A program made the position numbers and the translations under genes. 64,000 nucleotides of DNA from the NCBI GenBank assembly GCA_910575165.1, contig CAJTDS010000004.1:1-64000 (forward strand), written 5' to 3'. The notes under the pieces are model-generated. The model had not been told where the DNA came from. It searched no databases and saw only the letters and a list, made by a program, of their open reading frames with translations. Origin of the DNA: Eggerthellaceae bacterium (GTDB lineage: Bacteria; Actinomycetota; Coriobacteriia; Coriobacteriales; Eggerthellaceae). Shown piece by piece: positions 50,602 through 53,946 of this stretch; the stretch's first letter is position 1; each line of letters starts with the position of its first letter.

Positions 50602-52521
50602 ATGATCGTGAATCTTCCGGACGGCTCGCGCAAAGAGGTGGCCGAAGGCGCCACCGTGGCCGATGTGGCCGCCGCTATCGGGGCCGGCCTCGCGAAGGCG
50701 GCGCTGGCGGGCGTTGTGAACGATCGTCCCGTCGACCTGAACACCCCTGTGTCCGAAGGGGATTCCGTCGCTGTCGTAACTGCGAAAAGCCCTGATGGCC
50801 TCGATCTTATGAGGCACTCCACGGCGCATTTGCTGGCTGCTGCGCTCACCGAGCTGTACCCAGGCGTGAAATTCGGCGTGGGGCCGGCTATCGAGAACGG
50901 CTTCTACTACGACGTCGAGCTTCCCGAGGGAGCATCGATATCGCCCGAGGATTTCGCCGCCATCGAGGATCGTATGGCCGCCATCGCCAAGAGCGGTGCG
51001 AAGATCGAGCGCAGCGAGGTGACCCGCGACGAGGCCCGCGCCATCTTCGCCGAACAGCCGTTGAAGCTTGAACTCATCGACGAGCTGCCCGAGGGAGAGG
51101 TCGTCTCCGTGTACCGCCTGGGCGACTTCGTCGACCTGTGCCGTGGGCCCCACGTGCCCGATGCGGGCAAGATCGGTGCCTTCAAGCTGACCAAGGTGGC
51201 CGGCGCCTACTGGAAGGGCGACGCCGAGCGCGACATGCTCACCCGCATCTACGGCACCGCCTTCTTCTCGAAGAAGGAGCTGGAGGAGCATCTGCACAAC
51301 CTGGCCGAGGCCGAGAAGCGCGACCACCGCAAGCTGGGACGCGAGCTGGGCATCTACATGATGGACCCCATGGCCGGCGTGGGCCTTCCCATGTACCTGC
51401 CCAAGGGCGCCCGCGTCATCCGCACGCTGCAGGAGTGGCTGCGCCGCGACCTGTACGACCGCGGCTACGAAGAGGTCATCACCCCGCATATTTACAATGC
51501 CGACGTGTGGAAGACCTCGGGCCACTACGGCTTCTACCATGACAACATGTACTTCTTCCAGATCAACGAGGGAACCGACGACGAGCCCCGCATGAGCGAG
51601 TACGGCGTGAAGCCCATGAACTGCCCGGGCCACGTGATGCTGTACAAAAACGAGCTGCATTCCTATCGCGACCTGCCGCTTCGCTACTTCGAGTTCGGCA
51701 CGGTGTACCGTCATGAGATGTCCGGCGTGGTGCACGGGCTTCTGCGCGCCCGCGGTTTCACCCAGGACGACGCCCACGTGTTCTGCACCAAGGACCAGGT
51801 GGTGGACGAGGTAGTGGCCATCCTGGATCTGGTGGACCATATCATGACCACCTTCGGCTTCCAGTACGAGGCCGAGATCTCCACTCGCCCCGAGAAGTCC
51901 ATCGGCACCGACGATATGTGGGAGCATGCCACGAACGCCCTCATGGAGGCATGCGCGCGCCACAACCTGCCCTACGAGATCAACGAGGGAGACGGCGCCT
52001 TCTACGGGCCCAAGATCGACATCAAGGTGAAGGACGCCATCGGGCGCACCTGGCAGTGCTCCACGGTGCAGATCGACTTCAACATGCCCATGCGCTTCGG
52101 GCTGACCTACCGCACCGAGGACAACACGGAGGAAACCCCCTGGATGCTGCATCGGGCCATCTTCGGCTCCATCGAGCGCTTCCTAGGCATCCTCATCGAG
52201 CACTACGCCGGCTCGCTGCCGCTGTGGCTGGCGCCGGTGCAAGTGGCGGTGCTGCCTATAGCCGACCGCCATATCGGCGCGGCAGCCGATCTGGTGAAGC
52301 TCATCAAGGACGCCGGCGGGCGCGTGGAGCTGTACGACCAGAACGAGCCCATGCGCGTGAAGATCGCCAAGGCGCAGTCGCAGAAGATCCCCTACATGGT
52401 GGTGCTGGGCGACAAGGAAGTGGAAAGCGGCACCGTGAGCGTGCGCGAGCGCTCCGAGGGCGATCTGGGAAGCTGGCCCGTGGAGCAGCTGCTGGAAGTG
52501 ATTCGGGCAGCTGCGCTGTAG
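50602..52521 (+). CDS. thrS: threonyl-tRNA synthetase
   Basis: Charges tRNA-Thr; class II enzyme of 639 residues. TGS domain 1-62, editing domain about 65-225 with the HSTAHLLAAA motif, the catalytic core with MNCPGHVM and the zinc-binding residues, and the C-terminal anticodon domain. ATG 50602 preceded by AAAGGA. Confidence 0.97.
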   Translation: MIVNLPDGSRKEVAEGATVADVAAAIGAGLAKAALAGVVNDRPVDLNTPVSEGDSVAVVTAKSPDGLDLMRHSTAHLLAAALTELYPGVKFGVGPAIENGFYYDVELPEGASISPEDFAAIEDRMAAIAKSGAKIERSEVTRDEARAIFAEQPLKLELIDELPEGEVVSVYRLGDFVDLCRGPHVPDAGKIGAFKLTKVAGAYWKGDAERDMLTRIYGTAFFSKKELEEHLHNLAEAEKRDHRKLGRELGIYMMDPMAGVGLPMYLPKGARVIRTLQEWLRRDLYDRGYEEVITPHIYNADVWKTSGHYGFYHDNMYFFQINEGTDDEPRMSEYGVKPMNCPGHVMLYKNELHSYRDLPLRYFEFGTVYRHEMSGVVHGLLRARGFTQDDAHVFCTKDQVVDEVVAILDLVDHIMTTFGFQYEAEISTRPEKSIGTDDMWEHATNALMEACARHNLPYEINEGDGAFYGPKIDIKVKDAIGRTWQCSTVQIDFNMPMRFGLTYRTEDNTEETPWMLHRAIFGSIERFLGILIEHYAGSLPLWLAPVQVAVLPIADRHIGAAADLVKLIKDAGGRVELYDQNEPMRVKIAKAQSQKIPYMVVLGDKEVESGTVSVRERSEGDLGSWPVEQLLEVIRAAAL

Positions 52522-52592
52522 CCTGCGGGGCTGCGGCATTCCGGGTTGCTCGGACTTGCATTGGCGGTTCGGACGGTCGGCCGCTTGGAAAC

Positions 52593-52617
52593 TGCACGAG
52601 ATGCCGGCTGTGCGATG
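52593..52617 (+). repeat. 25-bp direct repeat, copy 1
   Basis: TGCACGAGATGCCGGCTGTG plus five more bases, identical to 52696-52720. Its first 14 bases also pair with 52623-52636 (one mismatch), making a hairpin. Confidence 0.85.
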
Positions 52618-52641
52618 CATATCCGGCAACTCGTGCCATCT

Positions 52642-52691
52642 GCTCTGACCTGGTGTTATATAGTGTAATGCCAGGTCAGAGCCTTGCTTTT
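52642..52691 (+). terminator. long-loop hairpin, probable thrS terminator
   Basis: GCTCTGACCTGG (52642-52653) pairs perfectly with CCAGGTCAGAGC (52671-52682) around an AT-rich 17-base loop, followed by CTTGCTTTT. The long loop is unusual for an intrinsic terminator. Confidence 0.65.
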
Positions 52692-52695
52692 CCCG

Positions 52696-52720
52696 TGCAC
52701 GAGATGCCGGCTGTGCGATG
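52696..52720 (+). repeat. 25-bp direct repeat, copy 2
   Basis: Second exact copy, 103 bp after the first. Its right-hand partner arm is degenerate (CCGGCCCGG), so it can pair only with the arm at 52623-52636 upstream. Confidence 0.85.
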
Positions 52721-52836
52721 TTTCCCGGCCCGGAACGCGAGACGGGAGCAGGAAGAGGGCGGGATTTCGGAAGGGGCTGCAGGCGTCGTTTTAGGCCTTT
52801 GGGTATCGCAGTGGGTAGGCCGGCTGCGGCCGGTGT

Positions 52837-53769
52837 CTAGCTTTCCAGGTACTGCAGCAGGGCGGGCCAGTTGCTGGCGGCGGTCTGGTAGCCTTCCTCG
52901 TAGAGGGCCAGCAGTTTCTCCGGGTCCTTCTCCATGGAACCTACCTGCACTGGCTTGGGCGGACGGATGCGGAACAGGCGTCCCTCGTCATGCCAGCGGT
53001 CGATGGCTCGGTAGGTGCGGTTGTAGTCGATATGGCGGTTTGCCAGGCGCTCCACGTAGTAGGGGTAGTCGCGGTAGCGGGACGAGATGAGCGGCAAGAG
53101 CTTGTTGGCCGGCTTCACGTAGGTGGCGTCCTGGGTGAGCACCACGATGTTCTTGCGGCCTGTGCCGTTCATGATCCAGGAATGGACGATGGGTACGCTG
53201 TCGCAGGCCCCGCCGTCCAGCAGAAGCTTGCCGTCCACCTCCACGATCTGGCTGATGAGGGGCATGGAGGAAGAGGCGATCAGGTAGGGCATGTCCTTCT
53301 TGGCGTCTGCTATGAGATGGTAGTCCGCCTCGCCGGTTTCCAGGTTCGCGGAAACGGCTACCAGGTTCATGGGGGAGCAGTTGAAGCTGTCGTAGTCGAA
53401 GGGCAGCAGTCGGTCGGGGATGTCGTAGAAGGCGAACTCGCGCCCGAAGGCGTTGCCGGTGCGCACGTAGCTCTTAAGCGACATGTAGCGCCAGTCGTCG
53501 CAGAACACTACGTTCTGCAGGCAGGTTCGCCCGCGGGCGCCGGCCACGTAGTAGTAGCCGGTAAGGGCTCCAGCCGACGTGCCGATGACGTTTTCGCAGA
53601 GCAGCCCCTGGTCCATGAGGAAATCCAGCACGCCTGCGGTGAACTGACCGCGCATGGCGCCCCCCTCGAGCACCAGGTTGACCGGCGATGCGGCACGCCC
53701 TTGCCACGCGGGCGGCTCGCAAGCCGATTCGCCACCGGCCGGGGAGGCTAAAAATGTTACCTGATTCAT
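52837..53769 (-). CDS. patatin-like phospholipase
   Basis: A 310-residue lipid acyl hydrolase of the patatin family. The oxyanion loop GGAMRG (about 36-41), nucleophile GTSAG (S65) and the DGG of the catalytic dyad (LLLDGGACDS, near 197) are all visible. No export signal is seen, so it probably acts in the cytoplasm on membrane lipids. ATG 53769 follows GGAAAGGA; a start 30 bases upstream overlaps that site. Substrate unknown. Confidence 0.88.
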   Translation of the reverse strand: MNQVTFLASPAGGESACEPPAWQGRAASPVNLVLEGGAMRGQFTAGVLDFLMDQGLLCENVIGTSAGALTGYYYVAGARGRTCLQNVVFCDDWRYMSLKSYVRTGNAFGREFAFYDIPDRLLPFDYDSFNCSPMNLVAVSANLETGEADYHLIADAKKDMPYLIASSSMPLISQIVEVDGKLLLDGGACDSVPIVHSWIMNGTGRKNIVVLTQDATYVKPANKLLPLISSRYRDYPYYVERLANRHIDYNRTYRAIDRWHDEGRLFRIRPPKPVQVGSMEKDPEKLLALYEEGYQTAASNWPALLQYLES

Positions 53770-53946
53770 GCCAAATCCTTTCCAGGTTCCTGCTACCATA
53801 GTCTAAGTCATTTCGTCAGCCTTGAACCGGCACGTTCTCCTTTCGGTTCGCTTCCAATATTGCTACGGAAGGGGACGCGCTCTTCTGAGCGGGTGCGGAA
53901 AGGGATAGACTGGCACGAACATGCCGCAGAGCCGCGGAACCGCGGC

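Follow-up and report, generated by a model that had tools for sequence, protein, structure and literature searches.

The repeat downstream of thrS and its predicted folds

The window, a 64,000-nucleotide stretch of DNA from an Eggerthellaceae bacterium, carries an exact direct repeat and a set of inverted repeats in the gap between thrS and a convergent gene for a patatin-like phospholipase. Three models recur throughout the analysis: R1, a covariance model of the 47-nt unit from 8 sequences; R2, a covariance model of the whole composite from 11 sequences; and R3, a 13-sequence model that was run on 1.26 Mb of stretches, some of them picked for known copies. Models and alignments were built stepwise from their own hits, which also served as training sequences for several of the models. 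The features of the locus are as follows.

50602..52521, + strand: thrS, threonine--tRNA ligase, the upstream neighbour (from its translation; NCBIfam TIGR00418, 703 bits, cut-off 383.65)
52592..52638, + strand: complete 47-nt palindromic unit, formed by copy 1 and the arm (R1, 68.5 bits; single-hairpin fold)
52593..52617, + strand: copy 1 of the 25-bp repeat (exact direct repeat)
52612..52721, + strand: the element in canonical orientation, as arm, 8 nt, 33-bp core, 17 nt, arm (R3)
52623..52636, + strand: 14-base arm CCGGCAACTCGTGC, which pairs with copy 1 or copy 2 (folding)
52646..52678, + strand: 33-bp palindromic core TGACCTGG...CCAGGTCA, within the stem 52642-52682
52679..52695, + strand: 17-nt spacer with T-rich tail GAGCCTTGCTTTTCCCG
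52696..52720, + strand: copy 2 of the 25-bp repeat, one half of a second palindromic unit that has lost most of its outer arm
52837..53799, - strand: patatin-like phospholipase gene, the convergent neighbour (Pfam PF01734 and PF19890)

Two exact copies of the 25-mer TGCACGAGATGCCGGCTGTGCGATG lie at 52593-52617 and 52696-52720, with a spacing of 103. Between them are the 14-base arm, which complements either copy at 13 of its 14 positions, and a 17-nt inverted repeat with 88% complementarity (52642-52658/52666-52682). An earlier note on this DNA had described a 25-bp repeat flanking an arm with a choice of two partners, and the exact repeat and the extent of pairing bear this out. The orientation of the window copy depends on the model used: R3, which counts this copy among its training sequences, gives 93.9 bits on the + strand vs 49.2 bits on the - strand, whereas R2, which was also trained on it, places it on the - strand. 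The + orientation was adopted on the grounds that it suits the spacer lengths and the core. At three other loci (L321, L312 and L323), the best score fell on the strand opposite to the initial reading.

A 146-nt stretch of the locus is predicted to fold with -75.7 kcal/mol, corresponding to z = -7.59 for the + strand and -6.95 for the - strand against 200 shuffles. The best fold, with the arm on copy 1, reaches -76.1 kcal/mol; forcing the arm onto copy 2 gives -74.0 kcal/mol, a penalty of 2.1 kcal/mol. In the predicted ensemble, the mean pair probability of the arm is 0.90 with copy 1 and 0.02 with copy 2. In the growing transcript, the local hairpin is predicted to be finished by position 52640, before the core or copy 2 has been transcribed. 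The earlier note had further held that pairing with copy 1 frees a downstream stem, which pairing with copy 2 encloses. The enclosing fold is real and conserved by covariation across genera (see below); the opposition of freed and enclosed states did not stand, as the central stem 52642-52682 is predicted in both folds, and the choice of arm partner therefore gates nothing.

Copies within the genome and among relatives

A genome search for the repeat unit, named in the earlier note as the test of a switch, found that the unit recurs in unrelated intergenic places, which speaks against a switch. Across the 2.72-Mb genome, a 19-mer of the unit has 19 matches with at most 3 mismatches, vs 4 for a reversed control. 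R1 and R2 together yielded 11 composite copies on several contigs, all of which are the training sequences of R2, and R2 located a twelfth outside its training set (C8:45340-45461). The 11 composites all measure 125-127 nt despite differing middles, and the genes adjoining them are different and mutually unrelated. The total for this genome is 17, comprising the 11 and the copies at C8:45340, C1:282073, C5:109355, C10:17752, C1:132675 and C2:67247.

The same genome holds six exact instances of the core pattern TGACCTGG-N(4-30)-CCAGGTCA and no instance of its reversed form. At three of these places, the outer arms are of another sequence and mutually complementary, imperfectly so in one. Scanning the 1.26 Mb with R3 added new copies at L277 (own genome, C2:67247) and at L265 (genome G008). 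A second arm type, CCCATATCCGTTCAnnTTGTCC, is common to L277:7247-7364 (C2:67247) and L275:7030-7147 (about C1:282030-282073), the two differing by two bases per arm with pairing preserved; given this match, the genome has a second repeated arm type.

Several individual loci merit description. One copy on contig C8 (L160:2205-2331) lies approximately 150 bp from a tRNA-Ala gene (2481-2556) and is followed by degenerate GCGCATCCGACAGG-type repeats. Another, at about 2537-2663 of L161 (C5:63536-63662), contains AAGGAG in its decayed end, just 5' of the probable start codon of a gene for a 2-hydroxyacid dehydrogenase, and may provide the ribosome-binding site of that gene. Exact nested palindromes number five in the 1.26 Mb, two of which belong to the element family described here. 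At about position 11481 of L286 (own genome, C5), repeated TTGAGAAGTTT / AAACTTCTCAA blocks make up a nested palindrome unlike that family. A near-perfect 54-nt hairpin with a similar outline and a different sequence (L117:1501-1554, C2:137473-137526) matches R1 weakly and is probably a separate terminator or repeat.

The arm type found at thrS is restricted to this species among the genomes searched. At E <= 0.01, R1 matched no other genome in a 60-genome set of relatives that included three congeners; at E <= 1e-4 over 138 family genomes, it returned one weak second genome, where the locus is a terminator beside a tRNA (the tRNA being identified by sequence reading). None of 17 thrS loci from relatives carries the element (R3, E <= 0.1), these being 15 of the 29 relatives' loci together with L026 and L027, and the sequences downstream of thrS in seven relatives differ among themselves. 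A contig search with ThrS gave matches across all bacteria and only two additional Coriobacteriia loci.

The composite model reached further. Over 297 genomes of the order, R2 at E <= 1e-4 matched 13 genomes (12 besides the own genome) from nine genera (eight besides the own genus), and most of the matches read in other genera fold into long, nested hairpins whose 33-bp core follows the same pattern. L248, the sole reading from its genus, was rejected: its 33-bp core has another sequence and its arms are unmatched (own -19.8, swapped -19.7 kcal/mol). With L248 not counted, seven other genera carry the family architecture. By these broader models, the thrS-type element is a divergent lineage of an element also present in those seven genera, defined by outer inverted arms and a 33-bp palindromic core. 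The element is sparse outside this species; R3 found nothing at E <= 1 in two 400-kb samples, one from the congener G002 and one from G006, the known G006 copy lying elsewhere.

Wider collections were also searched. Rfam gave no match for the window at gathering scores and none for the element at E <= 1; for 13 other loci, it returned only a chance microRNA model. A plasmid collection held no match to the element. A viral link was considered on the basis of an 18-base pattern present in 19 viral contigs, yet R1 and R2 are weak there (best 18.7 and 17 bits), and the link was rejected. The open-access literature yielded no account of an element of this kind in Eggerthella and relatives, which is a weak negative.

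Arm pairing and position relative to genes

The copies share a common layout, in which a palindromic unit (A followed by A', with A approximating TGCACGAGTTGCCGGTTGTGCG) is followed by 8 nt, the 33-bp core, 17 nt and a second unit of the same kind, the two units being arranged as an inverted pair around the core. The outer halves of the units have decayed to differing extents. Most copies retain a whole 3' unit and half of the 5' unit; the window copy, read on the + strand, is the reverse, with a whole 5' unit and half of the 3' unit. Its halved 3' unit thus fits the partly lost second copy that the earlier note had envisaged for a palindromic mobile repeat. The anatomy of that proposal and its recurrence in unrelated intergenic places stand, and mobility itself we infer.

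Pairing between arms was evaluated by exchanging segments among copies. In the own-species copies, this swap test gave p = 0.014 for the local arms, p = 0.016 for the core and p = 0.25 for the enclosing pairing, and the latter dominates the predicted ensemble in two of 11 copies (L110 and L111). In nine copies with other arms (L248 included), a copy's own flanks pair with -40.0 kcal/mol vs -25.3 kcal/mol for flanks of different copies (p = 5e-5). The 11 copies with the own-species arm type show no difference between own and swapped flanks (p = 0.70), because their arms are homologous. Among 13 aligned sequences, 21 of 23 outer-helix pairs have changed on both sides. Whole-structure covariation amounts to 0.332, vs 0.170 for shuffled and 0.049-0.127 for slid controls, over 13 sequences from which the structure was written by hand, a procedure that favours the score. 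The 13-row alignment (A5) omits L321, L312, L313, L317, L106 and L112 of the 19-row A4; L110, L237, L241, L242, L310, L323, L109, L111, L013 and L248 lie outside both. The enclosing fold is thus the fold of the wider element family, and the local hairpin is an addition in the lineage of this species.

The element prefers gene 3' ends. Context was counted for 30 copies with a simple ORF caller, whose gene calls are heuristic: convergent genes flank 14 copies, tandem genes 13 and divergent genes none. Three remain unclassified: one sits close to a contig end, and the other two overlap the predicted start of an ORF, and one or even both of that pair might be divergent. As background, the samples contain 453 gaps measuring 60-700 bp (98 convergent and 121 divergent); on the 27 classified copies, the binomial p is 5e-4 for the convergent excess and 2e-4 for the divergent deficit. 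Taking both overlapping copies as divergent gives 2/29, which is still low (p = 0.008). The copies in tandem gaps have the same orientation as the genes in eight cases and the opposite orientation in five. Almost all of the space between facing stop codons is taken up by the element in several other genomes. A consensus scan of the window detected one terminator-like site on the + strand vs 0.5 expected, and the T-run after the stem is not conserved among copies. At thrS, the element would most likely act as a passive 3'-end hairpin or weak terminator, if it acts at all.

Explanations for the element and comparison with known repeats

Between the convergent thrS and patatin-like genes lies a single copy of a nested-palindrome element, dispersed and non-coding, of approximately 110-130 bp, which, on the most probable account, we infer to have spread as a non-autonomous element. 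Its design consists of two outer inverted arms around the 33-bp palindromic core. In this species, the arms have themselves turned into palindromic units (one arm type, at least 11 copies), and each arm can pair either within its own unit, forming clover-like local hairpins, or across the core, forming one long hairpin. Such a choice of folds is inherent to any pair of inverted palindromes and is not a gene switch. The element may have been moved in trans by some enzyme and tolerated at gene 3' ends; no RAYT-type transposase (PF01797) was detected in the genome. Further points run counter to movement: the conserved compensating arms could reflect selection in place, and the copy number is low for a REP-type repeat.

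A more specific proposal, offered tentatively, concerns the behaviour of the arms. The conserved 33-bp core is flanked by long arms that vary freely yet would always change together and stay matched, as though one were made from the other during movement or repair; the family might be a RAYT-less fold-back mobile element that comes to rest at gene 3' ends, where it would provide a nested hairpin. Small bacterial palindromic repeats are mostly explained by RAYT transposases. A REPIN-like family with a conserved core, matched-pair arm changes and a gene 3'-end bias, in a genome with no detectable RAYT, would offer a concrete case for how hairpin repeats spread and stay matched without a known enzyme.

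The compensating arms across genera also fit a conserved 3'-end structure of this bacterial family, that is, a nested hairpin selected in place as a terminator, RNA stabiliser, RNase III site or supercoil-related site, and not (or no longer) mobile. The bias toward convergent and tandem gaps, the copies that fill a stop-to-stop gap and the terminator-like site in the window point the same way. We nevertheless regard this explanation as unlikely: the own-species arm type occupies 11 unrelated places and none in congeners, the 800 kb sampled from G002 and G006 gave no match, the T-run is unconserved among copies, and the copies in tandem gaps follow the orientation of the upstream gene in eight cases and oppose it in five.

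Far less probable is the regulatory RNA switch of thrS contemplated in the earlier note, which would choose between two folds that do lie only about 2 kcal/mol apart. Both folds contain the stem, the local hairpin is already closed by 52640, and the element is not retained behind thrS in relatives (0/17 loci). Moreover, the same composite adjoins unrelated genes, own-species copies keep the enclosing pairing no more than homologous arms give (p = 0.25), and Rfam provides no match. A chance repeat or assembly artefact, for which nothing favourable was found, is refuted by the same architecture in 11 copies on several contigs and by the exact core pattern at six places vs none reversed. The two competing folds 3' of thrS thus appear to come with a mobile-type repeat rather than to serve as a thrS switch; more generally, competing folds behind a gene can reflect repeat architecture instead of a switch.

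Read as a dispersed mobile-type repeat, the element can be set beside several known systems. REPINs are inverted REP doublets with compensatory changes that adopt a stable long hairpin and a "clover" fold, the clover being thought to be the form open to the RAYT (PMC3116915). The thrS-type element is alike in its spaced inverted palindromes, extragenic location, compensatory changes, and long-hairpin and clover folds. Unlike REPINs, it has a palindromic 33-bp core between its arms, and it has about 17 copies (R2 and R3) rather than hundreds; REP-type repeats usually exceed 100 copies (PMC2817692). REP units are marked by GTAG/CGTC tags (PMC3733652). No such tag is present at the units here, 1 of 11 having CGTC within 13 nt of either end, in the flank. 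The 99.74% complete genome contains no match to the RAYT family (Y1, PF01797), and five of 14 control genomes were positive. The element is therefore named REPIN-like or MITE-like, and not REPIN, for want of a PF01797 match and of GTAG/CGTC tags.

As a short non-coding element with terminal inverted repeats, it resembles a MITE. No empty site, target duplication or strain difference was found, the relatives' regions lacking synteny in two comparisons, and visual inspection around three copies located at contig starts showed no transposase. Integron attC sites, which are similar in length to the element, were considered and informally set aside, as the R-box consensus does not fit.

Further parallels are offered by two other dispersed repeats, each likened to the element by description only. 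Correia elements (CREE), a MITE of Neisseria, likewise carry inverted terminal repeats around a conserved core, and the RNA of their arms can also pair, the paired arms in CREE being a target of RNase III (PMC2649163, PMC10969869). CREE lie mostly upstream of genes and carry promoters (PMC2649163, PMC10969869), whereas the present element lies at gene 3' ends. SPRITE of Streptococcus pneumoniae, although from another phylum, is similarly a dispersed repeat with a terminator-like stem (PMC10969869).
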